Source: Dysgonomonas sp. 520 (GTDB lineage: Bacteria > Bacteroidota > Bacteroidia > Bacteroidales > Dysgonomonadaceae). Taken from it: a DNA stretch of 64,000 nt. Shown in pieces: positions 505 through 34,037 of the stretch. The DNA lies in the NCBI RefSeq assembly GCF_010501095.1, contig NZ_QVMP01000002.1:111280-175279 (forward strand), written 5' to 3'. Within the stretch, counting starts at the first letter, position 1. Every line of letters begins with the position of its first letter. A program made the translations under genes and the position numbers. The notes below the pieces were generated by a model that saw only the letters and a list, made by a program, of their open reading frames with translations, was not told the DNA's origin and did no database searches.

Positions 505-518
505 ATAATTTGATGAGT

Positions 519-13624: not shown

Positions 13625-13646
13625 GATTTAGGAACGGTATTTTTTT

Positions 13647-13654: not shown

Positions 13655-13743
13655 TGTAATTTTTATTCAACGTTTTTTAAACGTAACAGGAATAAAAACG
13701 GCTAATGTAATTGATCATCAAAATACCGATTCGTATAAACAAC

Positions 13744-14934: not shown

Positions 14935-14952
14935 TCTAACTAAAAATAACTT

Positions 14953-16622: not shown

Positions 16623-16814
16623 TCCCATCTAACCCATATACTGTCAGTCATTTAACTATCAAAGATTGTATTCTACTCACTTGTTACTCACTCCATTTTT
16701 AGAGTGATTTTTAAGAGAACTTTTCCTCTTTAAGTAATAAGGCAAAGGTAGAAATAAATTTATAGATATCCTAATACTTGTTTTATTTTTCGTTTAATAA
16801 TACATATTTTTATG

Positions 16815-16822
16815 TATCTTTG
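16815..16822 (+). promoter_or_regulatory. Promoter -7 element of the abiE-TOTE operon
   Basis: TATCTTTG fits the consensus and implies a transcript start near 16830, about 20 bases before the ATG at 16851. This rejects the earlier in-frame ATG at 16812. Confidence 0.55.
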
Positions 16823-16850
16823 TACGGGAAATAAAATAGAAGACGGGAAT

Positions 16851-17618
16851 ATGAGTAAATATATCGAAGAATTCCATAAACTCAAAATCTTCCATAAAAA
16901 AGATATTGTTGTATTGACCGGTGACGAAAATGCAGCAAAAGAACTTTTACGAAGGTATAAACAGCAAGGGTTAATATCACAAGTAAGACGAGATCTCTAC
17001 GTTGCAACAGATTTGGCAACAAAAACCAGTTCTGCTTCAAAATACGAAATAGCCAGTCAAATAAACTCTTCTTCTTACCTATCCTACCATGCTGCATTAG
17101 AATATCATGGTCTGGCTCATCAGGTATTTTATGAAATGCAGGTTTCATCCAAAGAGAGGTTCAACAACTTTGAGTACGATGGGATTAGTTATATTTATTC
17201 GGAATCGAAATCAGATGCCGGAGTTATTATTCCTCCTGCTGATACATTAATCAGAGTAACCGATTTGGAACGTACTATTTTAGATTGTATCAATCAAATA
17301 GACCGAAGTGGTGGACTGGAAGAAATGATAGAATGTTTTGCCCTTATCACTTATATCAATGAGAATAAACTACAAGACTATTTGAAGCAATTCAATAAAC
17401 AGGTTCTTTATCAAAAGACAGGATTTGTTCTTGGCTACTTTCAAAAGGAAATGAAGTTAAGTGATGCTTTCTTTGATTTTTGTAAATCCAAGATTGGGAA
17501 AAGTATCCGTTATTTGACAGGTCAACAGGAATCCAATGTGTATTTTAATGAATGGAAGCTTTACGCTCCTAAAAACATTCTTTCATTTTTAGAACAAGGA
17601 GGAAACGTCAATGTATAA
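16851..17618 (+). CDS. AbiEi-family antitoxin
   Basis: 255 residues from the ATG at 16851. An N-terminal winged-helix region (HKKDIVVLTGDENAAKELLRRY, then a short turn and RRDLYV) is followed by the AbiEi core (YLSYHAALEYHGLAHQ, then TLIRVTDLERTILDCI). AbiEi antitoxins repress their own operon and neutralise the nucleotidyltransferase toxin AbiEii in type IV abortive-infection modules. The stop codon overlaps the start of the toxin gene by 8 bases, so translation is probably coupled. Promoter position and the family's N-terminal motif agree on this start. Confidence 0.85.
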   Translation: MSKYIEEFHKLKIFHKKDIVVLTGDENAAKELLRRYKQQGLISQVRRDLYVATDLATKTSSASKYEIASQINSSSYLSYHAALEYHGLAHQVFYEMQVSSKERFNNFEYDGISYIYSESKSDAGVIIPPADTLIRVTDLERTILDCINQIDRSGGLEEMIECFALITYINENKLQDYLKQFNKQVLYQKTGFVLGYFQKEMKLSDAFFDFCKSKIGKSIRYLTGQQESNVYFNEWKLYAPKNILSFLEQGGNVNV

Positions 17619-18564
17619 TTATAGCAAAACTGATTTGGAGAGAATCGCTTCCGGTACAGATTTTATCCGGGATAATCTGGAAAAAGTGTTCCGCCTTTGT
17701 GATATCTTGAAACACTTAAATGAAAACCCGTTATTTGCCGAACATTTAGCATTAAAAGGGGGAACTGCAATTAACCTGACAGTTTTTAATCTTCCACGCT
17801 TATCGGTTGATATTGACTTGGATTTTACCAAAGAGTGTTCACGGGATGAAATGATGAAAATCCGGGAGAATATCAATCAGGATTTCCTGAACTATATGTT
17901 TACACAAGGATATGCTTTAAGTCCTAATACCAAAAGTCCGCATTCTCTTGATTCATGGGTATTTTATTTTCAGAACGCAGGAGGAAATAAAGATAACCTG
18001 AAAGTAGAGATAAACTATTCTTTGCGAAATCATATCTTGCCAATAGTTGAAAAGAAAGTGAATATAGACTTTCTACAATTTGACTCTGAAGTAAAAACAC
18101 TTTCTACCCTTGAACTATTTGGGAGTAAAATTAAAGCTCTTATTGAGCGGACAGCGCCCCGGGACTTGTATGATATTCACAATATGTTGAAATATAACAT
18201 CATCCATCCTGATGAGATGAACAAACTCCGCAAAATTATATTATTCTATCTTGCTGTAGGAGGTAGTGATAAACCGTCAAACAGCTATAGCTTTGAAAGT
18301 ATTGACAACCTGAAATTTGCACAAATCAGAAGTTCTTTACTTCCCGTCCTCAAGAAAAGCGAACGATTTGACTTTGAATCAGCAAAAGTAGAAGTGAAAG
18401 CATTTCTTATGAAACTGATGATATTTACCGAAGATGAAAAGTCATTTATCGAAAACTTCAACAACAATATCTATCGACCTGAATTATTGTTTGAAGATAC
18501 TGAAATTGTAGAGCGAATCAAAGATCATCCAATGGCAATTTGGAAGATAAGGAATAACAAATAA
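17611..18564 (+). CDS. AbiEii/AbiGii nucleotidyltransferase toxin
   Basis: A 317-residue member of the nucleotidyltransferase superfamily. The motif LKGGTAINLTVFNLPRLSVD begins near residue 48 and runs into DIDLDF, which supplies the GG and D-x-D metal-binding signature. The C-terminal half is helical. AbiEii-type toxins transfer nucleotides to tRNA or other targets and stop growth during phage attack. The gene overlaps the antitoxin gene and ends 10 bases before the TOTE gene, so toxin-antitoxin and TOTE protein appear to form one three-gene operon. No catalytic residue is obviously missing. Confidence 0.85.
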   Translation: MYNYSKTDLERIASGTDFIRDNLEKVFRLCDILKHLNENPLFAEHLALKGGTAINLTVFNLPRLSVDIDLDFTKECSRDEMMKIRENINQDFLNYMFTQGYALSPNTKSPHSLDSWVFYFQNAGGNKDNLKVEINYSLRNHILPIVEKKVNIDFLQFDSEVKTLSTLELFGSKIKALIERTAPRDLYDIHNMLKYNIIHPDEMNKLRKIILFYLAVGGSDKPSNSYSFESIDNLKFAQIRSSLLPVLKKSERFDFESAKVEVKAFLMKLMIFTEDEKSFIENFNNNIYRPELLFEDTEIVERIKDHPMAIWKIRNNK

Positions 18565-18574
18565 GAGGATTTAT

Positions 18575-21508
18575 ATGTCCGACCCCGAATTATTAAAGCG
18601 AATTGCAGAACTGGAAGCTCGAAATCTTGAGTTGCTTGCTGAAAATGATAGATTTCGGGAGATGTTAGGTTTGGCTCAAATAAACTCAATTTCTAAAGAG
18701 AAAGCTCAATTACAAGACGCTCTGAAACAGTACAATAGCATAGAAATTGCTTCCAAATCCTCAATAGATAAATACAGCACTCCTGATGAAAAAATAGAAT
18801 TGTTTCAGTCTTTATTTCGGGGACGAACTGATGTATACGCTAAACGCTGTTACAGCAAGAAGCATGGAAGTGCTTATTATATCCCTGCATGTAAAAACGA
18901 ATGGGTAAAAGGAGTTTGCGATAGAACACGTATTAAATGCAAAGATTGTAATAATCGGGATTTATTGCCACTGACAAAAGAAGTTGTCAATAGCCATTTA
19001 CGGAATAAAGATGAACATGGTGCCGGAATTGCCGGAGTTTATCCACTCTTGCCGGATGAAAGCTGTTTATTTCTTGCAGTTGATTTTGATGAAGCAAAAT
19101 GGGAAGAAGACATAAAGGTGTTTCGCTCTGTATGTAACACATATAATATTCCGGTTGCCATTGAACGTTCCCGTTCAGGAAACGGAGCTCATGCATGGAT
19201 GTTTTTTGAAGAGTCTATCTCAGCAGCGTCTGCTCGAAGACTTGGAAATGCGCTTTTAACAAAAGCCATGTCGGTTAGACATGAAATACGCTTCACTTCG
19301 TATGATAGAATGTTTCCTAATCAGGATTTTATGCCTAAAGGAGGCTTTGGAAACTTGATTGCTTTACCATTACAAGGTGGAGCTCGTGAAAATGGGAATA
19401 GTGAATTTATAGATGATAACTTTTTGAGTTATCCTGATCAATGGGCATATTTGGCCACTATCAGGAAAATGAGCTCAGACGAAATCGGGATTTTACTAGC
19501 CACTCTGTGTGATGGGAATGGGTTAGGCGAACTTGGGCATTTGGAAAATGAAGAGGAGAACTTATTCAAGCCTTGGGAAAGCAAAAAAGCGGAAAGTATT
19601 CTCGAAAAGAAAGATTTCCCAGATACATTGACTATCATTGAAGCAAACCGTTTGTATATTTCCAAAGACAAAATAAGCCCACGAGCACTCAATCGCATTA
19701 AACGATTAGCTGCATTTCAGAATCCTTTATTCTACAAAACACAAAAGATGCGGATGTCTACCTATGGTATTCCGAGGATTATCTATTCATTGGAAGAAAC
19801 GGATCAATATATCGGTATTCCTCGAGGTTGTCGTTCCTCTCTTATTCATTTGCTCGAAGAATCAAATGTAGAATATGCTTTCGATGATAAACGAAATAAA
19901 GGAAGACATATTAAGGTCAGTTTCAAAGGAATCCTTCGGGAGGAGCAGCAATCAGCAAAAGAAGTCTTGCTTCAGCACGAGAATGGCATACTATCTGTTC
20001 CTACGGCTTTCGGGAAAACTGTTATCGGAGCATCACTTATCACAAATAGAAAATGCAATACATTGATTTTAGTTCATCTACAAACTTTATGCGATCAATG
20101 GAAAAAATCATTGGAACAGTTTCTCGAAATAAATGAAATCTTACCGGAACTGGAAAAGAAGCGTGGACGAAAGAAGGTTCGTTCGATTATTGGTCAAATA
20201 GGTTCCGGTAAAAACACTTTATCCGGAATTATAGATATTGCACTTGTACAGAGTTTAGTCCATGAAAATGAAGTGGATGATATCGTAAAGAATTATGGTA
20301 TGGTAATAGTGGATGAATGCCACCATGCCTCTTCGCTTAATTATGAAAAGGTTCTTAGCGAAACGAATGCCCAATATGTCTATGGATTGACTGCAACACC
20401 AAAACGGCAGGACGGACAACATCCGGTTGTTTTTATGCAATGTGGTCCGATACGGTATAACGTTAGTGCAAAAGAACAAGCCGTCAAACGGAATTTTGAA
20501 CATTATGTTATACCATGCTTTACAGGATTTAGAAGGCCTTTCACACAAACGGAATCCGATTGGCACATAACAAAAATATATACGGCTCTAGCAGAAAATG
20601 AATTTCGCAATCAGCAGATTGCAACCGATGTATGTGAAGCTGTAACAAATGGCAGAACACCTATCATACTTACTCAACGAAAAGAGCATGTTGTGAGGTT
20701 GGCAGCTATTCTTAAAGACCAAACCAATGCACATATTATAACTCTTGTCGGAGCCGATTCCGCAAAAGTGAAAAACAAGATGATGGAATCATTAGCAGGC
20801 ATTCCACAAGAAGACAGACTCATTATAATTGCCACGGGAAAATACATTGGAGAAGGATTTGATTATCCACGCTTGGATACTTTGTTTCTTGCCTCTCCAA
20901 TCGCGTGGAAGGGAACATTGGCTCAATATGCCGGACGATTACACCGTGAATACCCCGGCAAGCAGGATGTGATTGTTTATGATTATGTGGACATTCATAT
21001 TCCGGTTTTGGAACGGATGTATCACAAACGGTTAACAGGCTACGCTCAAATCGGATATAAAGCTTTATTCTCAAAGAATGAACCGGATAAAATCAGCATG
21101 ATTTACGACAACAATACTTTTACCTCTATCATAAAGACTGATTTTGCTGAAGCGAAGAAAGAGATCAGAATTGCAAGCCCTTATATTCGCAAGGCTCAAA
21201 TTAAGGAAGTACTTGAATGGTTGAGAGCTCCTCTGGAAGCAGAAGTTTCGATTACCGTCATCACTCGTCCAATAGAATCATACAAGAAACAAGAACAGAT
21301 AAGAAAATGTATTGAAACTCTTCAAACAAAATTAACGGTCATACAAGAACCGGATATTTATCAGAAATACATCATTATAGACAATCGGCTCGTTTGGTAT
21401 GGAAGCATCAATCTCTTTGATTTCGGAAATCCGGAAGATACTATTATACGATTGGAGTCAAGAGAACTGGTGGATGAATTGAATGCTTTTGCAAAGGAAA
21501 GTATATAA
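18575..21508 (+). CDS. TOTE-type primase/SF2 helicase/PLD-like conflict protein
   Basis: 977 residues with several modules. Residues 1-60 are a coiled coil. Residues about 75-300 form the archaeo-eukaryotic-primase-like domain seen in TOTE conflict systems, with a Cys cluster (CKNEWVKGVCDRTRIKCKDC, residues 105-125) and a D-F-D metal pair near 168-170. Residues about 440-830 are an SF2 helicase with VPTAFGKT (Walker A, near 474), DECHH (near 578) and GLTATPKR (near 605). The last 120 residues resemble a PLD-type nuclease domain, but YQKYIIID has Tyr where the HKD motif has His, so this domain may be inactive or diverged. It starts 10 bases after the AbiE toxin gene. Predicted role: nucleic-acid recognition and remodelling in an anti-phage response. 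Confidence 0.8.
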   Translation: MSDPELLKRIAELEARNLELLAENDRFREMLGLAQINSISKEKAQLQDALKQYNSIEIASKSSIDKYSTPDEKIELFQSLFRGRTDVYAKRCYSKKHGSAYYIPACKNEWVKGVCDRTRIKCKDCNNRDLLPLTKEVVNSHLRNKDEHGAGIAGVYPLLPDESCLFLAVDFDEAKWEEDIKVFRSVCNTYNIPVAIERSRSGNGAHAWMFFEESISAASARRLGNALLTKAMSVRHEIRFTSYDRMFPNQDFMPKGGFGNLIALPLQGGARENGNSEFIDDNFLSYPDQWAYLATIRKMSSDEIGILLATLCDGNGLGELGHLENEEENLFKPWESKKAESILEKKDFPDTLTIIEANRLYISKDKISPRALNRIKRLAAFQNPLFYKTQKMRMSTYGIPRIIYSLEETDQYIGIPRGCRSSLIHLLEESNVEYAFDDKRNKGRHIKVSFKGILREEQQSAKEVLLQHENGILSVPTAFGKTVIGASLITNRKCNTLILVHLQTLCDQWKKSLEQFLEINEILPELEKKRGRKKVRSIIGQIGSGKNTLSGIIDIALVQSLVHENEVDDIVKNYGMVIVDECHHASSLNYEKVLSETNAQYVYGLTATPKRQDGQHPVVFMQCGPIRYNVSAKEQAVKRNFEHYVIPCFTGFRRPFTQTESDWHITKIYTALAENEFRNQQIATDVCEAVTNGRTPIILTQRKEHVVRLAAILKDQTNAHIITLVGADSAKVKNKMMESLAGIPQEDRLIIIATGKYIGEGFDYPRLDTLFLASPIAWKGTLAQYAGRLHREYPGKQDVIVYDYVDIHIPVLERMYHKRLTGYAQIGYKALFSKNEPDKISMIYDNNTFTSIIKTDFAEAKKEIRIASPYIRKAQIKEVLEWLRAPLEAEVSITVITRPIESYKKQEQIRKCIETLQTKLTVIQEPDIYQKYIIIDNRLVWYGSINLFDFGNPEDTIIRLESRELVDELNAFAKESI

Positions 21509-21550: not shown

Positions 21551-21976
21551 TCACAAATAAGTCTTTATCTCCTCAACGAGTTTATTTAAACGAATATCTT
21601 TATTTGTTTTATTACCAATTTCACATTGCCAAACTATGATGACATTCCAACAATTTCTCTTCAATTCAGCAATGTTTTGAATATCACGTTCTATATTTCT
21701 TCCGATTTTTTCTTGCCAAAAGTCATGATTTGTTTCCGGTAATGTTCCTCGTTGACATGAATGTCCGTGCCAAAAGCATCCATGAACAAATATGACGGTT
21801 TTGTATTTAGGGAGCACAATATCCGGCTTTCCAGGCAGGATCTTTACATTCTTTCTAAATCGGAATCCCTTTGAGAACAAGAATTTTCGTACTAAAATTT
21901 CCGGCTTAGTTTCCTTACCGGAAATTTTAGACATTATATCAGAGCGCTTAGATTTTGAATATATATCGGACATCAA
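21551..21976 (-). CDS. vsr: Very-short-patch mismatch endonuclease
   Basis: A 141-residue Vsr family nuclease of the restriction-endonuclease fold. It shows the RSDIMSKISGKETKPE N-terminal motif, the catalytic core GKPDIVLPKYKTVIFVHGCF with the metal-binding Asp, and WHGHSC with the zinc or active-site His/Cys residues. Classical Vsr nicks T:G mismatches made by deamination of 5-methylcytosine, and usually accompanies a C5-methyltransferase, as here. In systems with MORC-like ATPases, Vsr is also proposed as the cleaving nuclease. It is the last gene of the leftward operon, converging with the TOTE gene 42 bases away. An alternative start 6 bases downstream (MSDIYSK) is equally good. Confidence 0.9.
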   Translation of the reverse strand: MMSDIYSKSKRSDIMSKISGKETKPEILVRKFLFSKGFRFRKNVKILPGKPDIVLPKYKTVIFVHGCFWHGHSCQRGTLPETNHDFWQEKIGRNIERDIQNIAELKRNCWNVIIVWQCEIGNKTNKDIRLNKLVEEIKTYL

Positions 21977-21985: not shown

Positions 21986-22453
21986 TTATTCATCGCTACC
22001 TTCACTCTCATCGGCATATTCATTATATTCTTGATAGTCTTCAATAAAGTCAGGACAAACAGAAACAACTTCTCCTGTAATTACCTTTTCAATGAAGTCA
22101 TAAACATCATCAAGAAAATAGATTTCATCTTCCTCCGAATCATTACCATATCCATACGAAATATTTAGAATGGTTTCAGCAAGTTGCTTTATATTATTTG
22201 TTTTCACTTCAAATAAAACACTATCATGAGCAGAAGGAGAAACATAATAATATGTGAAATCATCAGCAACTTCGTCCAATTTCTGTCCGACAAAAGCTAA
22301 CATAGCATAATCATTAGCTATATCTCTGTTTGAACTTGAGAAAGTTTGAGTTGATTTTGGTACATATATTTCAAACGGTTGTTCTTTCTCATCCAATAAG
22401 CGATTAATAATATCGTCTATGTTATTCGTTTGTATATCTTGAATCTCTATCAT
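21986..22453 (-). CDS. Unrecognised acidic protein of the defence operon
   Basis: 155 residues I do not recognise. It is acidic, especially at the C-terminus (a run of Glu, Asp and Tyr), with alternating beta and helical segments and no signal peptide or membrane segment. It begins 21 bases after the receiver-domain gene's stop and ends 9 bases before vsr, so it belongs to the operon. A small acidic partner could be an inhibitor, a substrate mimic or an assembly factor; the sequence does not decide. The ATG at 22453 is the only plausible start. Confidence 0.65.
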   Translation of the reverse strand: MIEIQDIQTNNIDDIINRLLDEKEQPFEIYVPKSTQTFSSSNRDIANDYAMLAFVGQKLDEVADDFTYYYVSPSAHDSVLFEVKTNNIKQLAETILNISYGYGNDSEEDEIYFLDDVYDFIEKVITGEVVSVCPDFIEDYQEYNEYADESEGSDE

Positions 22454-22474: not shown

Positions 22475-24109
22475 TTAATTCCCTGCTATTCTTAACCACT
22501 CGAACTCATCAAGCCCAACACGGGAAAGAGATGAAACATAGTTTGTAACAATTCTTTGTGAATGCAAATCTTTCAAATCTAAAACCCATACATATTTTTC
22601 ACCTTCCTCATAGATTTGAGTGAAAGTATATTTTCCATTTGTATCATCCATCACTCCTTTTACTTCTCCTTCATCGCAATTGGACTTGAATTTAATGGTT
22701 TTTATTGAATATGTTTTCTTATCCAACTTAAGTTTAACCCCATCAGGTGTAAGTATGTGAAATTTATTTTCTTCTGTTTTTGTTAATGGTAGGAACAAAA
22801 ACTTTCGTTCCTCATCTCTTCCTAACCTAACGGAGTCACATCGTTGTTGGATACAAACATAGTAGTTGTCTTGATTTGAGGTACTTTTTATGATTGTTCC
22901 TAATGATAATTTTGGTGCTGTATTTTTAGGGATAAAAAGACTCTTGTGATGTGTCAATTTTGCAAATTTTTCGTTAAAGGCATCTTTATTATCTTGCTGG
23001 TCGAGATTAAGAAATAATTCTGTTGTCTTCGGATCTTTATATAGTTTTTCTATCTCTTTCTTAGATAATTTGCTATTAAATACTTCTTCAAAACGTTTTC
23101 CCACATCTTCCTTATCCGAATGTAATAATGCTTTTACAATATCTTGTGTTCTTTGAATATTTTTTCCGTTCAATGAAATATTTTCATTTGCAATATTACT
23201 CTCAATCCAAATGTCAATCAATTCCGTTTGCACTTTCTGAGGGATTGATGCATAATGCAATAAATCGGATATCGTATCTCCAAACAATTTTAGAAACAAA
23301 TCCTCCGAATCATTTTGAACCGGAAGCATGGCTTTATGCCCCATATAAGGAGCATCCAACTCTTTGGAAAATAGGCTAAGTATTTTGTGCGAATTGTCAC
23401 GAATAGAGGTCAAAGCTAATAATGCAAAATTCGATAAAAGTCCAGAAGTCATTACCGTAAGTTCAGTTAAAACGAAAGATGGTAAGTCTTCATAACGTAA
23501 TATTTTATCTTGTAAATGAGGACGTTGGGTAAAACGTGTATCTTCGGATTCTCCACTGGACTTTGCCCTGATTAATATCCGAATATTTGTAGAACAAACT
23601 TCACAATTAGCCGGCAACAACTCAAACTGCTGATTTTGTGGCAAGATATGATCATAAACACTTTGAGTTATTTCTTCTAAAATATCATCTCCCGTATAAA
23701 TAACAATCAGTTTTAAACTATTATTCCCAGAATTGTTAACCAATTCATTTATTATCTGTTTTGTGTATTGCCCTCTTGGGTCTTCTTCTTCCGCATCTTC
23801 TGTCTGGTCTTCGCCTACTGCTTCATCTTGTATTTCAATAAACCAATCAAGTATAACTACATCAGCTTTTTTTGAGATTTCTTTAAAGTCTTCAATATCA
23901 GAAACAGTCAAAGGGTTATATACTGCGCAAACCTTCTTCTCTTTGGCAAATGCTTTGGATATTTCATATGAATCGAATGCATGCTGGCTATTGTTTTGCA
24001 TTGAACCTGCAACTACATTACTCCCAAATGCTTTGTCATCAAGGAAAACAATACTCTGTAAGAATCCATTTGCTATCTCTTTGGATTTTTCAAAAAAAGC
24101 AGTACTCAT
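22475..24109 (-). CDS. Receiver-domain protein of the defence operon
   Basis: 544 residues from the ATG at 24109, 7 bases after the stop of the upstream ATPase gene; the longer frame from 24196 overlaps that gene and is not needed. The N-terminal 160 residues look like a divergent response-regulator receiver (Response_reg_2 type). QSIVFLDD gives the acidic pair Asp24-Asp25, ADVVILDWF gives the likely phospho-acceptor Asp88, and LIVIYTGDD supplies the Thr strand. An acidic insertion (EDQTEDAEEEDPRGQ) follows Asp88. The remaining 380 residues are mixed helical and beta with no known effector domain. Its upstream partner carries a histidine-kinase core, so the pair looks like a two-component relay. 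Confidence 0.65.
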   Translation of the reverse strand: MSTAFFEKSKEIANGFLQSIVFLDDKAFGSNVVAGSMQNNSQHAFDSYEISKAFAKEKKVCAVYNPLTVSDIEDFKEISKKADVVILDWFIEIQDEAVGEDQTEDAEEEDPRGQYTKQIINELVNNSGNNSLKLIVIYTGDDILEEITQSVYDHILPQNQQFELLPANCEVCSTNIRILIRAKSSGESEDTRFTQRPHLQDKILRYEDLPSFVLTELTVMTSGLLSNFALLALTSIRDNSHKILSLFSKELDAPYMGHKAMLPVQNDSEDLFLKLFGDTISDLLHYASIPQKVQTELIDIWIESNIANENISLNGKNIQRTQDIVKALLHSDKEDVGKRFEEVFNSKLSKKEIEKLYKDPKTTELFLNLDQQDNKDAFNEKFAKLTHHKSLFIPKNTAPKLSLGTIIKSTSNQDNYYVCIQQRCDSVRLGRDEERKFLFLPLTKTEENKFHILTPDGVKLKLDKKTYSIKTIKFKSNCDEGEVKGVMDDTNGKYTFTQIYEEGEKYVWVLDLKDLHSQRIVTNYVSSLSRVGLDEFEWLRIAGN

Positions 24110-24116
24110 TTCCGCA

Positions 24117-27089
24117 TTATTTATTTTTTTCGATTTTAAAACTAACTGTGCTACCTTCTTGAGGTGAAGCAACAGAAATCTCATAATTTTCTGCATTCAA
24201 AACTTCTTTACTAATGCTTAGTCCCATACCTCTACCGTTCGGTTTTCGTGAAAAACCAAGTTCGAACATACGCTCTTTATCTTGAGGTAAAATTTCTACG
24301 CCGTTATTAGAAATATAGATGCCAGTATCATCTGCATGCAATCTTATTGTTTTTTCTTCCGTATCGCTCTGTTTAAGCCAATAAATTGCATTGTCGATAA
24401 TATTTACAAATACAGGATAAAAAGTCGAACGAAATCCAAAAATTTTTCGAGAAGCATATCCTTTTGTATGCTTGAATTGAATATTATGCCTTTCAAATCT
24501 GGATTTAAACAAATCTATTAGAAATGTTTTAATTTCCAATAAAGAAATGTCTTCCCGTTTTCGATTCAACCGTCTGTTTAATGGTGTAAATAAGTTAAGA
24601 TAACCATCCAAATGGTCAAAGTTTGTTTTAATATTTTTATAAATTCCATCTATCTGCTGGTCAACATCCGACCATGCTCTTAAATCTTTGAGGCTGCTTC
24701 TTATTGATTTGACAGTACTATTGAATTCATGATTCAAGATACCGACAGCCAATCCTAACTGACTTAATTCAATATCCGTTTGTACACGTTCTCTTAGTTC
24801 TTCTAATTCTTCCGATAGAGCATCAGTGATTTGGTCATTAGTTATAATTTGTCCATCAACATCTTTCTCGATATAGAATCCTTCGAATTGACGGATGATT
24901 TTATCCATAACAAAAGTGTTTCGGCTACTAATCATCTCAATTTCATCTTCCATTGATTTTCTTTCTTTAACCAAATCAAAATCTTCAGATTCGAGCATAC
25001 TCAAATTTTTAAAACGGTCTCTGACCGTTCTGATTTGGTTGTCCAAGTCCAGTATTAAATCGGAAGTAAACTCTTTAATCTTTTTTGAGACCTCATTAAC
25101 AACTTCATTTGTCTCATTTTTCTTTTCCGTATTTGTTTTTTTAGCTTCTACGGATATAAGTTCTACAGCTTGTTCCAACCGTTTCCGCTTACTTATCTCA
25201 ATATTAAGTTTCTTTGTATATTCGGATACAATGGAATCTATTTCATTTATGGCATTTCTGAACAAGGTTTCTTCTAATATCCTAAATTCTTTCAAGTAAG
25301 TATCAAAGTCAGTTCGTGCTGATTTTGATATTGTAAAACCCTTAGGGCTGGAAACTGCAATTCTTTTCTTATAATCATTTATTTTCTGCCGAGCATCAAA
25401 TTCATAATCAATAATTTTCTGTCCGGCTTCATCCATATCTTTACAATAAACCACCGAATTGAATTTCTTTCTGGTTTCTGTTAAGATATCATTTACTGCA
25501 ATTTCAAATCTACTGGAAGTAAGATTTTTAAAAAACAAATCAAGTTCTTTCAAAAATTTATCTTTTCTTCCTTTAGCTAATTCTTCACGCCTCTTTAATG
25601 CTAAATGATGTGTGTTTATTTCATTTTTCTTTTTTACCCAAAATTCGGATTGCGGACTTTCTCCTTTTTCATCAAAGAAATCAGCTGCCAATTGTACAAA
25701 AAAGTTTTTGAGTATAGCTTGCATTTGCCTGTATGCTTTATTCTCAATAAACCCCTCTCGTCCAGCCTTTTCCACTAAATTATTGTTGTTTTTTGCTGTA
25801 ATTTCAATCGCACCAAACATTCTCCTATACGAAAAGAAATAGGTAGACATTCTTTTTGTTCGGTTTTTTTCTATATCTAAAAAATCATAATCAGAATTTC
25901 CATAAGGCAGTACTCTGATATTATTTTTATAAATATAAAGACCACCAAATTTGTCTCCTTTTGCTTTAATTATAGCCCAGTTTTCAGCATCAACTCGGGT
26001 ACTTCTTAATTCTCCTTGTAAATAAGCAAAATTGATTTTAAAAGGACCACAATTGGTCTCTTTGAAACTATTTTCTCTCCAATTTACAATATGATCATAC
26101 GTTTTTTCACCGTAAATTTTGATTGTTCCTCTGAATTGACCGAATTCATCAAATGCTCCTTGAAAATGATGGTCAGCTAACTCAAATTCTTCAGGAGTGA
26201 AGAATTGTTCTTTATCTATCAGATTATCATAGATGCCATCTTCTCCTCGATAATCTCGAAAAGAAATATCGATCGCTGGAGCCGGATGTTCCGGAGTCAT
26301 TGTATTATGAAATCCGATTAACATTTTTTCAATAGGAGTAGCTTCCGTGCTATCCTTATCACCTTCTATATCAAATGCTAATGTTTCATTTACAGGCGAT
26401 ATGTAAAAAAAAGTACCGCCTTTGTTTTCTGAAAATTCAAAATTGCCGACTAGTTTACCATTAAGCTCTAAAGGTGAGATATTGAAGTCTTCAATGGTTT
26501 TCTTTACCCTGATATAATCCTCTTCTAAAATAACATCTTCTTTCAATAAACTATCCAAAGAATTAATGACTTCATTTTTAATATTATCTATATCAGTTTT
26601 ATTCGGAAGAGACTCAAATTCTTTAACCGGGATTGTTATATCCTCCAAATTAATTCCGGGTAACTCAAATAATTCCCAGTTTATAAAAGCAACAACAATC
26701 TTATATGCTTCCTTTCTTAGTTTAGCTTTACTAATAATAAGAACTTGTTTTCCTATAGATGCAATAGCCAGTCGCCCAATTCCTTTTTCACCCATTACCG
26801 GTCTTAAGGGCTTAGAATTATCTATTGGGGGTAATGTTGTTTTCTTGTTTGCAAACTTGCTTTCCGTTCCGATAGTAAGCCATCGTGTTTCAAATTCATC
26901 TTTGGTCATTCCAAGTCCGTCATCTCTTAAAACAATCAGATTGTCTTTTCTTAAGAAATCAATATCAAACTTATCCGCATATGCATCATGAGCATTCTTT
27001 ATTAACTCATTAATTGCGGTCGGTATACCTGCAATTTGCTGTCTTCCGAGCAAATCTAATGCTCTTGCTCGTGTTTTAAACTGTGCCAT
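24117..27089 (-). CDS. Dual GHKL ATPase: paraMORC-like N-terminus plus histidine-kinase C-terminus
   Basis: 990 residues. The N-terminus is a MORC/Hsp90-like GHKL module: NELIKNAHDAYAD (N-box, near 29), VLRDDGLGMT (near 55) and MGEKGIGRLAIASIGK (near 98). The middle (about 490-760) is long, charged and coiled. Residues about 775-815 resemble a DHp helix with a candidate phospho-His in ILNHEFNSTVKS (near 784). The end is a second, kinase-type HATPase: NIIDNAIYWL (N-box), ISNNGV and GRGMGLSISKEVL. MORC-like GHKL proteins are known next to methylases and nucleases in bacterial restriction-type operons. The start overlaps the methyltransferase gene by 14 bases, implying coupled translation. The region is visibly more AT-rich than the backbone. 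Confidence 0.8.
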   Translation of the reverse strand: MAQFKTRARALDLLGRQQIAGIPTAINELIKNAHDAYADKFDIDFLRKDNLIVLRDDGLGMTKDEFETRWLTIGTESKFANKKTTLPPIDNSKPLRPVMGEKGIGRLAIASIGKQVLIISKAKLRKEAYKIVVAFINWELFELPGINLEDITIPVKEFESLPNKTDIDNIKNEVINSLDSLLKEDVILEEDYIRVKKTIEDFNISPLELNGKLVGNFEFSENKGGTFFYISPVNETLAFDIEGDKDSTEATPIEKMLIGFHNTMTPEHPAPAIDISFRDYRGEDGIYDNLIDKEQFFTPEEFELADHHFQGAFDEFGQFRGTIKIYGEKTYDHIVNWRENSFKETNCGPFKINFAYLQGELRSTRVDAENWAIIKAKGDKFGGLYIYKNNIRVLPYGNSDYDFLDIEKNRTKRMSTYFFSYRRMFGAIEITAKNNNNLVEKAGREGFIENKAYRQMQAILKNFFVQLAADFFDEKGESPQSEFWVKKKNEINTHHLALKRREELAKGRKDKFLKELDLFFKNLTSSRFEIAVNDILTETRKKFNSVVYCKDMDEAGQKIIDYEFDARQKINDYKKRIAVSSPKGFTISKSARTDFDTYLKEFRILEETLFRNAINEIDSIVSEYTKKLNIEISKRKRLEQAVELISVEAKKTNTEKKNETNEVVNEVSKKIKEFTSDLILDLDNQIRTVRDRFKNLSMLESEDFDLVKERKSMEDEIEMISSRNTFVMDKIIRQFEGFYIEKDVDGQIITNDQITDALSEELEELRERVQTDIELSQLGLAVGILNHEFNSTVKSIRSSLKDLRAWSDVDQQIDGIYKNIKTNFDHLDGYLNLFTPLNRRLNRKREDISLLEIKTFLIDLFKSRFERHNIQFKHTKGYASRKIFGFRSTFYPVFVNIIDNAIYWLKQSDTEEKTIRLHADDTGIYISNNGVEILPQDKERMFELGFSRKPNGRGMGLSISKEVLNAENYEISVASPQEGSTVSFKIEKNK

Positions 27090-28138: not shown

Positions 28139-28354
28139 TTACTCCTTAGTTTTTGTAGAAACCAATAAATCTTTTACATCAACATCAAGCATGTTCGCTA
28201 TTTCAATAAACGTTTCTATTGTTGGCTGTTTTTCGTTAGTGCACCATCGGGAAACAGTTGATTCTGTTTTCCTCAATTGTGCTGCCAGCCATTTGTTGGT
28301 CAATCTTTTCTCTGCAAGAATAACCTTAATCCGATTTATTGCTTTTTCAGACAT
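28139..28354 (-). CDS. XRE-family HTH regulator of the defence operon
   Basis: 71 residues from the ATG at 28354. A Cro/CI-type helix-turn-helix covers most of it: LTNKWLAAQLRKTESTVSRW, then PTIETFIEIANMLDVDVKDL. Such small regulators act as C-proteins in restriction-modification operons, delaying nuclease expression until methylation is established. The promoter immediately upstream leaves a leader of only about 12 bases, so the longer frame starting at 28429 is ruled out. It is the first gene of the operon. Confidence 0.85.
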   Translation of the reverse strand: MSEKAINRIKVILAEKRLTNKWLAAQLRKTESTVSRWCTNEKQPTIETFIEIANMLDVDVKDLLVSTKTKE

Positions 28355-28372
28355 ATTTATTGTTCTAGCGTG

Positions 28373-28403
28373 CAAATTTATTGTTTCTTTTTCACCTGTG
28401 CAA
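28373..28403 (-). promoter_or_regulatory. Promoter of the HTH-MTase-ATPase-receiver-Vsr operon
   Basis: On the minus strand TTG, 20 bases, then TAAATTTG matches the Bacteroidetes consensus with ideal spacing. It drives a nearly leaderless transcript for the HTH gene. Confidence 0.8.
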
Positions 28404-28474
28404 CTGTCATATAGATAACTTATCAACACTTAGATACTTACATGCTTCGCTCCATTAGTATAACCTGATCAGCT

Positions 28475-28759
28475 TTATAGTTTGCAAACATGCTCCTCCA
28501 ACCACCTCAACACCTCAGATTCTTTATACAGTATCTTCCCCTTTATCTGAATAAACGGGATTTTTCCCGTATCCCGCCAATCCTGCAAGGTTCGAGACGA
28601 GATTTGAAGCATTTGGCAAACATTTCGGTTTGACAGGAATTTTTCTCCGTTCAGGTGTGGAGCTCGGTTTTTAAGGGCTTGCCGAATGGTGTCCAACAAG
28701 TCATCCAGAGCCGAGAAGAACGAATTTATTTCCGTTGATTTTCTATCTAACATCTCCAT
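28475..28759 (-). CDS. Excisionase-type helix-turn-helix protein 1
   Basis: 94 residues of the HTH_17 family common in Bacteroides mobile elements: a helical N-terminus, LSNRNVCQMLQISSRTLQDW as the recognition helices, then DTGKIPFIQIKGKILYKESE, the winged hairpin. Such proteins regulate excision and transfer genes or act as directionality factors. It is the last gene of a leftward cluster with DUF3876 and a second HTH gene. It lies next to, but separate from, the defence operon. Confidence 0.8.
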   Translation of the reverse strand: MEMLDRKSTEINSFFSALDDLLDTIRQALKNRAPHLNGEKFLSNRNVCQMLQISSRTLQDWRDTGKIPFIQIKGKILYKESEVLRWLEEHVCKL

Positions 28760-28770
28760 TGTTGCACTTT

Positions 28771-29052
28771 TTAGTTCCGCATATAGTCGCCCAATGTGGA
28801 AATGGTTAGTATATCCAGTTTAGCATCGTGGCTGATAGCCGTCCGTTTTAGGTCGTATTTGATAAAGAATCCGTCTTCATCTTCCTGTATCTCGTAAGTG
28901 GCTGGGCTTGCCTGTTTGCTTGTTTCGTTCATGTGGATGACGCTAAGCAAATAGCCGTCTCCATTTCGGTATATGATAACTGTCGGATTCAGGTTGATAC
29001 TCTCCCAACTGCCGACCAAACTATCTAAAAAGTTGTATCTCTTTGTTTTCAT
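28771..29052 (-). CDS. DUF3876-like protein
   Basis: A 93-residue soluble protein with the pattern LDSLVGSWESINLNPTVIIY, then GDGYLLSV and a C-terminal LTISTLGDYMR. This matches DUF3876, a small beta-rich family found almost only between HTH genes in Bacteroidales conjugative and mobilizable elements. Its function is unknown. Its start overlaps the end of the next upstream HTH gene by 4 bases, so the two are translationally coupled. Confidence 0.75.
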   Translation of the reverse strand: MKTKRYNFLDSLVGSWESINLNPTVIIYRNGDGYLLSVIHMNETSKQASPATYEIQEDEDGFFIKYDLKRTAISHDAKLDILTISTLGDYMRN

Positions 29053-29333
29053 TGTTGTTCTTTGCTGATTTGTGACTGACTGATTAAATTCTCAATATCC
29101 GATACCCGGTAATAACATTTACGCCCAATCTGTGAATATGGCAGAATGCCATTGTCCCTGTAAGATTGTAACGTTCGCTTTGATGTTTGCAGAAGTCCGC
29201 AAACATCATCGTTGCCTAACCATTTTTCTTTATCCTGATTCTCCCTGCATAGATTTCTTACCTGTCGGGAAAAATCCTCAAAACGTTGCTTTACCTGTTC
29301 ATACGTTTTCTTTTCTATTGCTATTATTTCCAT
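29049..29333 (-). CDS. Excisionase-type helix-turn-helix protein 2
   Basis: 94 residues: a charged N-terminal helix, then LGNDDVCGLLQTSKRTLQSY, NGILPYSQIGRKCYYRVSD and a short polar tail. It is the same HTH family as the neighbour at 28475 but clearly divergent. The stop codon overlaps the DUF3876 start. It is probably a regulator of the mobilization module. Confidence 0.8.
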   Translation of the reverse strand: MEIIAIEKKTYEQVKQRFEDFSRQVRNLCRENQDKEKWLGNDDVCGLLQTSKRTLQSYRDNGILPYSQIGRKCYYRVSDIENLISQSQISKEQQ

Positions 29334-29352
29334 CTTACTATATTTTAGTTGA

Positions 29353-30039
29353 TTACTCCCTTATAAATTTCATATAGTCGAAAACGCTAGCTTCATTGCC
29401 AGAGATAAACTGTCTGTCATCCTCAACTCTATTCAGGATAGCCATCGCTCGTTCTTCTGCCCCATGAATCTGTTTGGTAAATTGATTATAAATATCAGCA
29501 CCCTCAATTTTAGGTATAATATGAGCAACTTGCGTTTCCTCTTCTTTCGTAATAGGATTACCTTTCAGTGTCCTAACTACCAATTCAAATTCGTCAAGGC
29601 TTGTTCCCGAACTGAATTGCGACCGTTCCTTTTCTGTTAGAACCGGAATTTCTTCTTCGTCCAAATAGTTGTCAGTATCAACGTCTGAAAGTTCTTTTCT
29701 CTCCAATGGGATAGACATAAAAGGCTTATTTTCTTCTATCATCTTGGATTGTTGCAGCACCAGTTCTTTCAGTTCGGCAATTTCTTTTTTTAGTGGGTCT
29801 TCGGGTTTTATTGGTTCCGGTTGTGTCTGCTTAGAGATGCTATTCTCTTTCAGTTTGAATTTCGATTTTCCGATAATATCCGGTATAGGATCTTTGCATG
29901 AAGCCTCTTTCTTGCTATCTTCTTTCCTTGATTGATACTTCTTATCAAACCAGTCTTTAAAGATATTCCAAAGGTTCAGGCATGCCATGAAAAAACATGC
30001 CGTCGCCAATAGAATTGCTTTTATCTTTTCTGCTTCCAT
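29353..30039 (-). CDS. Conjugation-module protein, TraD/DUF4122-like position
   Basis: 228 residues. One N-terminal membrane segment (about residues 7-26) is followed by a charged linker with a short coiled coil (KKEIAELKELVLQQSKMIEE) and an acidic C-terminal domain ending in VFDYMKFIRE. I do not see a diagnostic motif. The position directly after the ParA-like gene matches the TraD-type gene of CTnDOT-family modules, which is the basis of the call. It begins 2 bases after parA and is surely co-transcribed with it. Confidence 0.5.
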   Translation of the reverse strand: MEAEKIKAILLATACFFMACLNLWNIFKDWFDKKYQSRKEDSKKEASCKDPIPDIIGKSKFKLKENSISKQTQPEPIKPEDPLKKEIAELKELVLQQSKMIEENKPFMSIPLERKELSDVDTDNYLDEEEIPVLTEKERSQFSSGTSLDEFELVVRTLKGNPITKEEETQVAHIIPKIEGADIYNQFTKQIHGAEERAMAILNRVEDDRQFISGNEASVFDYMKFIRE

Positions 30040-30041
30040 AT

Positions 30042-30827
30042 TTACAGATTGATTGTTTTGATAATCTCCTCAACTAACAAATCCAAATTGCTGCCATTTA
30101 GCAATGGTTTATCAGGAGGGAATATTGTTGAGAGGAACAGATAATCATTTCCTTCAATGGATTGTTCCCTGTCATAACGGACACTTTGCGGGATGCGGCT
30201 CTCCATAATGGAAATACCTAATCCTAAAATAGCTTCTTCGTAATAATTGAATAGCTCTTTTCTCTCCCGATTTGTTACTCTGTTCCAGAACGGATAGATA
30301 CCCTTCAATCTAACTTGCGGATTCATGGTTATCATCTCGTTAATAGAAATGATAAATGGTAGGGTGCTTTCCATATTAATTCGAGAAGTGGTTATCGGAA
30401 CAAACAGATAATCCATCAGGAAGAATATCTCGACCACATTTTCATTGTTTACCGTTCCCGGCAAGTCGAATAATACTACATCGTATTCTTCCGATTCGTT
30501 TTCCCAAAATGCTTTTGCCCTTATCAAGGCTTGTTCCGGTTCGGTCGGAACGATAGGATAAGTAGGTTTACCTAATTTCGTGAACAGGGCTTCCGCTTTC
30601 CTTTGATAAAAAGCATTAGTTTGTAATTGTTCCGCTTCCCGCTTCCGCATCTTCTGGATACTCCATTGTGGGAAGTCGCAATCTATTACAGCCACATTAT
30701 AGTTTTTCAGATAATGTAGATAACTGGCTACTAAAGTTGTGAAGACGGATTTGCCTGCTCCTCCTTTTTGTGTACAGAAAGAAATATACACAGGTCTTGC
30801 TTGTTTTTGATTCTCTGAATTGCTCAT
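30042..30827 (-). CDS. ParA-like ATPase of the mobilization module
   Basis: 261 residues with a deviant Walker A (CTQKGGAGKSVFTTLVASYL, near 19), VAVIDCDFPQ (A' motif) and VVLFDLPGTVNN (Walker B). These features define the MinD/ParA family. CTnDOT-like elements carry such a gene (TraA) at the head of the transfer region, where it may help maintain or position the excised circle. It lies between a DUF3408 gene and the TraD-position gene in one leftward operon. Confidence 0.88.
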   Translation of the reverse strand: MSNSENQKQARPVYISFCTQKGGAGKSVFTTLVASYLHYLKNYNVAVIDCDFPQWSIQKMRKREAEQLQTNAFYQRKAEALFTKLGKPTYPIVPTEPEQALIRAKAFWENESEEYDVVLFDLPGTVNNENVVEIFFLMDYLFVPITTSRINMESTLPFIISINEMITMNPQVRLKGIYPFWNRVTNRERKELFNYYEEAILGLGISIMESRIPQSVRYDREQSIEGNDYLFLSTIFPPDKPLLNGSNLDLLVEEIIKTINL

Positions 30828-30863
30828 GATGCTTTTTTTAGTTTATACTGTTTCTGAAATGAA

Positions 30864-31322
30864 TTACTTACCGCTCCTTTTTATGGGCCTTTTGATGTTC
30901 TCTTCGTAGATACGATTGATTTCATCTTCATAGAGTTCGATATGATGGCTGATGATGTTATCAACCAATCCGCTGACGCTAATCCGTTCATTGCGTATTG
31001 AGCGGACAAGGGTTTGAAGAACTTCGTAGTTGTCTTTGCCGATATACAATCCCTGCCGATTACGAAGTTCATTACGGGAAAGAAATACCGATTCATAATC
31101 AACCGATTGTCCCCTCTTCTTTTTGGGCGGTTCTTTTGTTTTTTCTTCAATGGAGATTTCCGGTTCTGCGTTCGTTTTGTTTCCGGCAACTTCCAACTGA
31201 TTTTCTGCCTGTGTGGATTTAGGCATTTCTTCATTGCTGCCTGCAACCGCGACTTGACGGATAAATGCACTTGTGTCTATCTTCACACCTGCTTTTTTGC
31301 TTACTTGATTATCTTCTTCCAT
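30864..31322 (-). CDS. DUF3408 protein of the mobilization module
   Basis: 152 residues. The N-terminal half is a low-complexity linker rich in Glu, Lys and Pro. The C-terminal half is a DUF3408-type ribbon-helix-helix-like domain: LYIGKDNYEVLQTLVRSIRN, then VSGLVDNIISHHIELYEDEI. DUF3408 proteins accompany ParA in Bacteroidales elements and probably bind DNA. This is the first gene of the leftward transfer operon, whose promoter should lie in the hairpin-rich gap to its right. Confidence 0.82.
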   Translation of the reverse strand: MEEDNQVSKKAGVKIDTSAFIRQVAVAGSNEEMPKSTQAENQLEVAGNKTNAEPEISIEEKTKEPPKKKRGQSVDYESVFLSRNELRNRQGLYIGKDNYEVLQTLVRSIRNERISVSGLVDNIISHHIELYEDEINRIYEENIKRPIKRSGK

Positions 31323-31638
31323 ATATGAATGATTTTATGATTACCCACATTTATACAATTCTTCTTTTATTCATTAAATCAGCTATTCAGGTATCTGTTT
31401 CTGATTACTTGAACATTTGCACATCTGTCTATCTGCATACTTATCGCCAAATAGGCAAACAGACAATTTTTCTTATATCCTGACTTGCATTTTTGCTTTC
31501 ATTCCACAAAGAAAACGATAAAAGAAAGCTGATTTTGGAATCGAGTTTAAGTGGCACTGACTGACCGTTTCTGCCCGCTTATTCTGTTGTGTATAAGCGA
31601 AGTTCATCCCCTATCTTTGTCCAGCGGGAGTGAAAAGC

Positions 31639-31738
31639 CGGGAGTTATCTATGATTTAAAACTCCCGATAAATGAGTAACCGTTCCGGCTCCTATTAATG
31701 TCCGCCAATGCCGGCGGATTTTATTGTCGTCAGACAAT
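31639..31738. other. Hairpin cluster, putative oriT of element 1
   Basis: Three hairpins lie in the 540-base gap between the divergent transfer operon and mobA: 31639-31667 (8-bp CGGGAGTT/AACTCCCG), 31701-31718 (TCCGCC/GGCGGA) and 31723-31738 (ATTGTC/GACAAT). A relaxase operon starts 130 bases to the right. Divergent promoters plus tight inverted repeats next to mobA/mobB are typical of an origin of transfer. The nick site is not identified. The rest of 31323-31865 holds no gene. Confidence 0.45.
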
Positions 31739-31865
31739 AGCAAGAAGTGTTTTTGTCAGCAGAAAATTGCATTTTCTTATCTTCCAAAAACATTTCTTGC
31801 CCAAACCTAAAGTTTGGGGGCGGTTCTCCCAAGTCGAACCTTTTAAAGAATAAACTCAAAATTTA

Positions 31866-32312
31866 ATGAACATGGAACATGTTAATAATGGAGCCGGACG
31901 GCTCAAAAAGAAAAGAGGGCGTAAGCCTAAAGCGGACAAGCAGGCTTACCGCTATATGATACGCCTGAACAACAAGGATAACGAACGGTTTCTATCCTTA
32001 TTCCATAAGTCAGGACATAAAAGTAAGTCCCGGTTTATTGCAGATTGTGTACTGAATAATCCGGTAAAAATCGTTTCGATAGATGAATCTGCTATGAATT
32101 TTGCGATGTTGTTGTCCCATTTTTTTGCACAGTTTCGGGCGATAAAGACCAATTATAACCAAGCCTTTCAAGTCTTGATTCGGAATTTAGGAGAAGAAAA
32201 AGCGCGTTCAATGATGAAAATTATCGAGAAACCAACACTGGATTTTATCCTGATAAAAGGTCAAATAGAAGATATATACACTCAAATCAGAGAAAGATGC
32301 TTGCCAAAATAA
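31866..32312 (+). CDS. mobA: MobA-type relaxosome accessory protein
   Basis: 148 residues with a basic, Lys-rich N-terminus (GRLKKKRGRKPKADKQ). A ribbon-helix-helix-like segment (YMIRLNNKDNERFLSLFHKS, then SRFIADCVLN) and a helical C-terminus follow. It resembles the small MobA proteins of Bacteroides mobilizable elements, which bind oriT and recruit the relaxase. An alternative ATG lies 6 bases downstream. It overlaps the relaxase gene by 16 bases, so the two are coupled. Confidence 0.8.
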   Translation: MNMEHVNNGAGRLKKKRGRKPKADKQAYRYMIRLNNKDNERFLSLFHKSGHKSKSRFIADCVLNNPVKIVSIDESAMNFAMLLSHFFAQFRAIKTNYNQAFQVLIRNLGEEKARSMMKIIEKPTLDFILIKGQIEDIYTQIRERCLPK

Positions 32313-33577
32313 GTTCGGGTAAATCAGTATTTGGGGTATTAGCCTATAACAAAATCAAGGTGGAAGACAATCAGGCAGATGTATTGTACAGCCAGAAGAT
32401 GTTTAACTCTCCTGACGGAAAATTTTCCATCCATGATTGTATGGATTCGTTTTATCCTTATCTGGCGATGAACAATAGAACTGAAAAGATTGTATTCCAT
32501 GCTTCGCTCAATCCTGATCCAAAAGATAAACTATCGGATGAGCAGTTATCAGAGATAGCTCAGAGCTATATGGAAAAACTCGGATATGGGAACCAACCTT
32601 ATATTGTTTTTAAACATTCGGACATAGACCGGACACACGCACATCTTGTATCATTGAGGGTTGATGAAGCCGGCAGGAAGATAAGCGATAGTTATGAAGT
32701 AGCACGTTCCATGAAAATATGCAAGGAACTGGAACAGGAGTTTAATCTTGTTCCGTTGAAGAAAGGACAGCGTGAAAATGATACCCCGACAAAGAAGATA
32801 GACTACAAAACCGGAGATATAAAACATCAGATGGGTAATATAGCTAAATCGGTAATGAGTCATTTCTATTTTCAGTCATTCGGGGAATACCGGACACTAT
32901 TGGAGCAGTTCAATGTAACGGTGGAAGAAGTAAAAGGCGAATATAAAGGCAAACCGTATCAAGGGCTGATTTATTCCGTAATAGATGACAAAGGAGATAA
33001 AATCGGTGTGCCGGTTAAATCCTCCAAGTTTGGCAAATCAGTCGGCTATGATGCAATGCAAAAGTATTTTGAACACTCCAAATCAGCTATCGAGAAAAAC
33101 AGGGTAAGGGAAAACCTTCGTCCGGTAATTGCCAAAGCGATGAAAGAAGCCAATAATGTAGATGATTTTAAGTTGCTGTTGAAAGAGAAAAATATCGGTG
33201 TCATTTTCCGGCAAAACGAACAAGGACGTATTTATGGAGTTACATTTATTGACTACCGGAATCAGGTTATTCTTAACGGTTCACGTTTAGGAAAAGAGTT
33301 TTCTGCCAATCAGTTTCAGAATTTATTCAAAGACTCTCTAGTGAAAGAAGAAAGACCGGAACAACAAGCCAGTCACAAACTCCAACCGGAAAAGTCATCT
33401 TCGCCATCCCTAAATATGTCTGGTGCCACGGATGCTGCTTCAAGTCTGTTCGGCATCTTCGATATAGAGCCACAAGGTGAGAATTATGAAGACATCGCTT
33501 TTGCTAAAGAAAAAGAATATGAAGAAAAGCAGCGACAACGGAAAGCGAAAAAAAGAAAACCGGGTAGGCAGATATAA
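32297..33577 (+). CDS. mobB: Relaxase MobB
   Basis: A 426-residue mobilization nuclease. The histidine triad lies in FKHSDIDRTHAHLVSLRV (near residue 107-119), preceded by a candidate catalytic Tyr in the N-terminal strand region. LYSQKMFNSPDGKF and KIVFHASLNPDP are family-typical. The C-terminal 100 residues are polar and Lys-rich. MobB nicks oriT and pilots the single strand out through a co-resident conjugation apparatus. No coupling protein (MobC/TraG) or mating-pair genes follow, so element 1 is mobilizable, not self-transmissible, as seen here. Confidence 0.88.
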   Translation: MLAKISSGKSVFGVLAYNKIKVEDNQADVLYSQKMFNSPDGKFSIHDCMDSFYPYLAMNNRTEKIVFHASLNPDPKDKLSDEQLSEIAQSYMEKLGYGNQPYIVFKHSDIDRTHAHLVSLRVDEAGRKISDSYEVARSMKICKELEQEFNLVPLKKGQRENDTPTKKIDYKTGDIKHQMGNIAKSVMSHFYFQSFGEYRTLLEQFNVTVEEVKGEYKGKPYQGLIYSVIDDKGDKIGVPVKSSKFGKSVGYDAMQKYFEHSKSAIEKNRVRENLRPVIAKAMKEANNVDDFKLLLKEKNIGVIFRQNEQGRIYGVTFIDYRNQVILNGSRLGKEFSANQFQNLFKDSLVKEERPEQQASHKLQPEKSSSPSLNMSGATDAASSLFGIFDIEPQGENYEDIAFAKEKEYEEKQRQRKAKKRKPGRQI

Positions 33578-33625
33578 ACTCATCAATGAAATATCCAAGA
33601 TTAGGATTTAAAATGAAATATTTTC

Positions 33626-33670
33626 CTTTTCAAAGTCCCCCAAGGGGTTGGTGAGGGGACGTTCGAAAAG
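33626..33670. terminator. Interrupted hairpin between mobB and a convergent HTH gene
   Basis: CTTTTC and GTCCCC pair with GGGGAC and GAAAAG around a G-rich loop. It separates mobB from the convergent HTH gene and may act as a bidirectional terminator, though T-runs are weak. Confidence 0.4.
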
Positions 33671-33704
33671 AAAAATATTTGTTAGAGAGAGTTCTGTGTG
33701 GAAC

Positions 33705-34037
33705 TTAGGTGCTTTTACTGGAATCCGCCTGCTTTTCAAATTCCTGCCAAGTCTGGAAATCCATGTGGCTACGGACAAATTCCCGTACATCGGAAGTGCG
33801 GTAGTAGGTTTTGTGAGCGATCATGAAATAGGGTAATTTCTTACTTGTCCTATATCGTTGGAGCGTTCTATACGATACTTTCAGGAGAAATGCCAAGTCT
33901 TGGTTATCCAACAGTTTCTCCTCTTCGCTGAACACTTCACTTGTATTTATCAGTGATTTTAAGTCCTGACCGATTTCATTCAATTTCTTGGATAGCCTTT
34001 CCATCCATTTTTCAAAATCTTCGTTATTGATATACAT
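33705..34037 (-). CDS. Excisionase-type helix-turn-helix protein 3
   Basis: 110 residues. A helical N-terminus (FEKWMERLSKKLNEIGQDL) precedes LLDNQDLAFLLKVSYRTLQR and SKKLPYFMIAHKTYYRTSDV, the same HTH_17 architecture as the proteins at 28475 and 29049. Such proteins usually regulate mobility genes. The gene stands alone, convergent with mobB. Confidence 0.78.
   Translation of the reverse strand: MYINNEDFEKWMERLSKKLNEIGQDLKSLINTSEVFSEEEKLLDNQDLAFLLKVSYRTLQRYRTSKKLPYFMIAHKTYYRTSDVREFVRSHMDFQTWQEFEKQADSSKST

Follow-up and report, generated by a model that had tools for sequence, protein, structure and literature searches.

Restriction enzymes of the BbrUII/HgiDII type have a methyltransferase partner, and Detocs is a set of three genes that follows two-component logic and has an effector as its output. 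A published glossary lists Detocs as a defensive two-component system (PMC11249213). ParaMORC ATPases of restriction–modification (R-M) operons were described by Iyer et al. (2008) (PMC2292703), and defense by VcSduA/paraMORC3 needs GHKL ATPase activity (PMC12137116). The closest described system is the pair of families HEF_HK and Response_reg_2, for which a linkage of 91.6% was reported in 644 regions (Bellieny-Rabelo et al. 2021) (PMC8011034). In that survey, 174 of the 222 HEF_HK proteins had the domain order HATPase_c_3, HEF_HK, HATPase_c ("group 1"), and C5 methyltransferases, Vsr, and R-M genes were found near HEF_HK loci; the N-terminal ATPase was missing in 34 of the 222, so it is not always needed. 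Its authors proposed that paraMORCs had given rise to a novel two-component system. We found no experimental study of the kinase–regulator pair in the literature searched, subscription journals lying outside its scope.

The locus described here lies in a stretch of 64,000 nucleotides from Dysgonomonas sp. 520, which we refer to as the window. Its kinase gene (denoted MORC-HK) is a real open reading frame (ORF) of 990 aa on the minus strand; a chance or mis-framed ORF was ruled out by full-length relatives across phyla, which align over the whole protein at 25%–81% identity. The gene is a further member of HEF_HK group 1, and the MORC–kinase fusion is therefore not new: The locus shares with the published system the domain order, the adjacent Response_reg_2 gene, the upstream C5 methyltransferase, and the downstream Vsr. 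What is new beyond the 2021 paper is the fold support for the MORC and kinase parts, a common output domain, two extra classes, and the swapping of methyltransferases. In reading order, the window operon comprises the following genes:

28139-28429, minus strand: small HTH regulator of the Cro/C1 type, encoded ahead of the methyltransferase (PF13443/PF01381), also seen in loci L019, L024, and L078
27076-28134, minus strand: C5-cytosine DNA methyltransferase (Dcm; PF00145, 176 bits), first gene of the core triad
24117-27089, minus strand: MORC-HK, with a paraMORC-like GHKL ATPase, a coiled coil, and DHp and CA domains
22475-24109, minus strand: response-regulator-like protein of 544 aa (PF19192; AF2 model with pLDDT 84.9)
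21986-22453, minus strand: 155-aa protein, outside the conserved core
21551-21976, minus strand: Vsr mismatch endonuclease (PF03852, 124.8 bits), accessory

On balance, we think that MORC-HK acts as the sensor kinase in a defensive two-component system that is linked to DNA modification and resembles Detocs. The likeness to Detocs lies in the three-gene set, the two-component logic, and the effector-like output. The components differ: Detocs has a PNP effector that cleaves ATP, whereas the window has a MORC ATPase as input, a linked DNA methyltransferase, and a Cys-Asp effector-like domain. The window kinase and regulator had no match in PADLOC-DB 2023.

Using kinase queries and not regulator queries, we collected MORC-kinases of three classes: A (∼990 aa; HEF_HK), B (∼790 aa), and C (∼700–750 aa). 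Classes B and C lie outside the published Pfam families (PF19191/PF19192); class B falls near or below the PF19191 cut-off, and the class-C protein tested was unmatched. In a sample of 395 genomes of the phylum, strong Response_reg_2 matches were present in nine out of nine genomes with strong HEF_HK matches, and 16 genomes had class-C-like proteins (E ≤ 1e-30, some class-B proteins being counted among them). There were 61 distinct full-length kinases, of which 60 were testable because enough sequence followed the gene or a regulator was visible. A receiver protein was found directly downstream on the same strand in 59 of these 60 (41/41 in class A, 5/5 in class B including one remnant in L047, and 13/14 in class C), counts that are descriptive since the loci are related and hence not independent, and for which the class-B and class-C regulator profiles were built partly from loci that were also counted. 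A C5 methyltransferase was nearby in all 42 class-A loci and in nine out of 14 class-C loci. Loci L037, L138, and L139 had another methyltransferase-like neighbor (TSPPY-type in L037), and the class-B loci L043 (12092-12913) and L093 (9911-10750) had a PAPS-reductase-like neighbor instead of a DNA methyltransferase.

Across 38 class-A loci, distances between kinases correlated with those between regulators at r = 0.96, compared with r = 0.76 for kinases and methyltransferases. A comparison of loci L038–L041 with L018/L025 found methyltransferases that were 63%–69% identical alongside kinases at 27%–29% and regulators at 16%–19%. The kinase and regulator diverge as a pair, and the methyltransferase is swapped. 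Separately, we noted that L037 holds two different MORC-kinase/receiver systems (131-4049 and 9475-15077), one with a TSPPY-type and one with a C5 methyltransferase, and that in L025 the class-A triad is immediately followed by the gene of another paraMORC-like ATPase (12655-14286), which has a Hypoth_Ymh domain at its C terminus.

The regulator was divided into a receiver and a C-terminal output domain:

23444-24109, minus strand: receiver domain, residues 1–222
23846-23848, minus strand: putative phosphoacceptor Asp88, with the acidic pair 24–25 also in place
22478-22954, minus strand: C-terminal output domain ("CD domain"), CIQQRCDSVRL...SRVGLDE, with invariant Cys424-Asp425 and Arg530

Response_reg_2 (PF19192) matched the mechanical ORF at 22475-24196 with 99.5 bits; the mechanical ORF runs from 24196, and translation most likely begins with the ATG at 24109, seven bases past the kinase stop. 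The AF2 model of the receiver matched KdpE and PmrA with Z ∼12, both D24 and D88 are conserved, and Asp88 is intact in every class-A row that retains the receiver. Intact receiver proteins of all three classes end in this previously undescribed output domain, although their kinases have different modification genes as neighbors. The domain, which makes up the C-terminal ∼160 residues, is homologous across regulator classes by profile comparison (probabilities of 98.4% for A–C, 96.6% for A–B, and 97.6% for C–B). The Cys-Asp pair and the later Arg were invariant in 24 diverse members; the regulators of L093 and L142, both outside this 24-member alignment, have Cys-Asn instead. The domain also occurs on its own, in proteins of ∼185 aa. 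It had no PDB relative in profile searches and no consistent Pfam match, only scattered single weak ones, and a Foldseek search with the whole 544-residue model returned nothing at E ≤ 0.001 in PDB or BFVD. The structure matches listed for the regulator were all taken by the receiver; the whole model was used, so the output domain may have a known fold.

Standalone Cys-Asp domains were found within three-gene sets in loci L185 (5308-6943) and L182 (5557-7113); the first gene of the L185 set, two genes before the domain, is of the TIGR04255 family. In Dysgonomonas sp. 511 (L024, 9250-10971), a region 96% identical to the window has a TGG-to-TGA change in the regulator right after the Asp88 codon. 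This stop and a 1-nt deletion in L079 both break the regulator and leave the kinase and methyltransferase intact. We considered such natural knock-outs as evidence of toxicity and dropped the argument, since E. coli copies break in other genes too.

The authors of the 2021 paper speculated about a regulatory role, in which the two-component system senses stress and controls the expression or activity of the linked R-M genes. The reported linkage to R-M genes (PMC8011034) and the methyltransferase in every class-A locus are in agreement with this. We nevertheless consider a regulatory role unlikely, because the regulator has no DNA-binding domain recognizable by Pfam or structure comparison, the operon has an HTH gene of its own (28139-28429), and the methyltransferase is the sole R-M gene of several cassettes.

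The original prediction had placed a paraMORC-like ATPase at one end of MORC-HK, and the structural evidence upheld this. The N-terminal module and the linker after it are as follows:

25617-27077, minus strand: GHKL ATPase and S5-like transducer module, residues 5–491 (HATPase_c_3, MORC3 match, and motif conservation)
24882-25739, minus strand: long helical, coiled-coil-like linker, residues 451–736 (secondary structure of the AF2 model)

The AF2 model was computed for the monomer from an alignment of 38 relatives (mean pLDDT 81.6, pTM 0.56). Compared with solved structures, its N-terminal module (residues 5–483 in the alignment) matched the MORC3 ATPase-CW structure best (Z 20.3 over 330 residues, 4.0 Å); SMCHD1, MORC4, and MORC2 also matched, with Hsp90/TRAP1 just behind, and comparison with MORC3 showed that the GHKL domain is followed by an S5-type transducer domain. 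HATPase_c_3 matched residues 24–137 above its cut-off (61.9 bits), and the GHKL ATP-binding motifs (E28/N32/D35, D56-DGLGM, and G100-EKGIGR) are all intact in MORC-HK and in the aligned relatives. MORC-HK shares the N-terminal GHKL and S5-type ATPase, the intact motifs, and the methyltransferase/Vsr context with the paraMORCs (PMC2292703) and VcSduA (PMC12137116). Those proteins carry a nuclease, TIR, or HEPN domain, whereas the window protein ends in a histidine kinase.

MORC-HK could also be the ATPase of a restriction enzyme of the HgiDII/BbrUII type, with Vsr or the output domain as the nuclease and the kinase core as a dimerization scaffold. We rate this as improbable. The N terminus is indeed most similar to that family (NF050001), a C5 methyltransferase is always linked in class A, and VcSduA/paraMORC3 sets a precedent for defense that requires GHKL ATPase activity (PMC12137116). 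However, the match to NF050001 (77.1 bits) is confined to residues 9–137 of the ATPase part, with no similarity beyond and far from the curated cut-off of 550 bits; unlike BbrUII/HgiDII, the window system has a kinase core and a separate receiver protein, and the strictly conserved His and receiver Asp point to a real relay. Considered as a type II R-M system, the window operon has the DNA methyltransferase, and Vsr is the only nuclease identified in it; Vsr is present in 15 of the 42 class-A loci and absent from the other 27, which led us to reject it as an obligatory nuclease. Because most class-A loci do without it, Vsr more plausibly accompanies the methyltransferase in a repair role than serves as an effector. 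No nuclease motif was recognized in the output domain, and no cognate restriction nuclease was identified in minimal three-gene islands. The 155-aa protein was likewise rejected as a core component, being present only in L024 and partly in L020.

At the other end of the protein, the predicted histidine kinase core was recovered as well:

24594-24839, minus strand: DHp-like helical hairpin, residues 751–832 (AF2 helices 751–809 and 811–832)
24729-24731, minus strand: codon of the invariant H787
24120-24563, minus strand: kinase catalytic (CA) domain, residues 843–990 (PF02518 and ThkA CA match)
24306-24308, minus strand: G1-box residue Asn928 (motif alignment)

Pfam matches to HEF_HK (PF19191; residues 777–843, 98.3 bits against a cut-off of 24.1) and HATPase_c (PF02518; residues 891–988, 62.5 bits, above cut-off) were accompanied by structural matches of residues 750–990 to DHp and CA structures with Z of 16.7–18.5 (18.5 for 4gcz and 16.7 for 2c2a) and of the CA domain to that of ThkA with Z 18.8 and 2.3 Å (AF2 model). 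A DHp-like helix carrying ILNHEFNSTVKS had been predicted before the second GHKL domain; the helix is real, but the histidine is residue 787 and not 784. In the monomer model, residues 773–788, which include H787, have a pLDDT <50. The prediction would have failed had the histidine varied across homologues, but H787 is invariant in all rows (38/38 in the class A/B alignment, 13/13 in class C, and 5/5 in class B). It is followed by E or D among relatives (E788 in the window protein, within the motif H787-E788-F), and the further core motifs are N896/N900, SNNGVEI at 927, the F box at 939, and GRGMGL at 952.

Both GHKL signatures had been called complete. This holds for the first; the second lacks the canonical G1-box Asp, which contacts adenine, and has Asn928 in its place, and on its sequence MORC-HK is best described as kinase-like. 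Among the 37 relatives that keep the domain, 14 have D and 23 have N here and no other residue occurs, with at least three D/N switches on the tree of relatives. Eleven other parseable kinases in the same genome have D (eight), N (two), or S (one) there; because of these N and S residues, Asn928 is no evidence of a dead kinase, and together with the conserved partner sites they ruled it out as proof of one. A kinase-dead variant, in which the second GHKL domain can no longer use ATP because of Asn928 and signaling proceeds by binding only, might explain the 23 relatives with Asn and the locus without a CA domain (L032), but it is very improbable given that the N, F, and G2 boxes, H787, and the partner Asp are conserved in the Asn clade, on top of the repeated switches and the N or S of same-genome kinases. 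In L032, the MORC-kinase (1745-4914) stops before the CA domain, and the regulator encoded by the next gene has ∼198 residues, with the Cys-Asp motif kept and the receiver Asp region gone.

If MORC-HK is the sensor of a defensive two-component system, resident DNA would be marked by the C5 methyltransferase of the operon, and the N-terminal MORC-type ATPase would serve as the input, probably closing around DNA on ATP binding and reporting DNA that is foreign (unmarked) or whose state is perturbed. The DNA-binding and methylation-sensing roles are inferred here from MORC homology and gene context. The signal would travel via the coiled coil and reposition the DHp/CA kinase core, which, judging by conservation and fold, would autophosphorylate H787. 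Adjacency, intact sites, and co-divergence suggest that the phosphate would pass to Asp88 of the neighboring regulator, and phosphorylation may then release the C-terminal Cys-Asp domain, the likely effector. Phosphotransfer is made much more plausible by the cognate receiver with an intact Asp88 downstream and by the methyltransferase partner. The earlier idea that a DNA-clamp ATPase fused to a kinase core could turn DNA sensing into phosphotransfer is borne out as far as the MORC-like ATPase module, the kinase core, and the conserved His.

More tentatively, we suggest a superfamily of phosphorelay defense systems coupled to modification and wider than HEF_HK, whose members may consist of a paraMORC-histidine kinase and a receiver with a conserved Cys-Asp/Arg effector domain, accompanied by interchangeable C5 or TSPPY methyltransferases or PAPS-reductase-like neighbors; the effector, also found standalone, would be a new enzyme or binding fold. 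This broader superfamily and its output domain look like the part that deserves follow-up. Following the kinase in three classes, the common Cys-Asp domain is a target in the search for a new effector activity. Should the relay work, bacteria would be feeding a histidine kinase with the input of a MORC-type ATPase and so converting a DNA state into a phosphorelay; elsewhere, this ATPase family is known from chromatin silencing and from restriction loci. The long-standing question of what MORC proteins sense in prokaryotes would then be directly testable by a phosphorylation readout.

Several genomes carry the system as a minimal cassette. In Pantoea dispersa, the methyltransferase, kinase, and regulator stand alone between metabolic genes with no other defense gene, and in E. 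coli GPEC349-628, a three-gene island sits amid IS debris, other defense genes being absent. A near-identical cassette was found in 205 of 5426 complete E. coli genomes and a second variant in seven; in E. coli SE15, the cassette is near a MobH relaxase gene. Searches of viral contigs with class-C and E. coli proteins gave no matches; relatives were also found on predicted viral contigs and plasmids.

The surroundings of the window operon hold further genes of interest. A plus-strand stretch (17611-21508) encodes an AbiEii-like nucleotidyltransferase, with a weak AbiEi match at 16812-17615, and a 977-aa protein in which a TOTE archaeo-eukaryotic primase, an SF2 helicase, and a PLD nuclease are fused. 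These AbiEii-like and TOTE genes are convergent with the R-M operon and apparently form a defense island. On its other side, the operon adjoins mobilization genes, with a ParA-like ATPase, a MobC-like protein, and a MobA/VirD2 relaxase at 30042-33574 and several HTH_17 genes around them (28475-34037).
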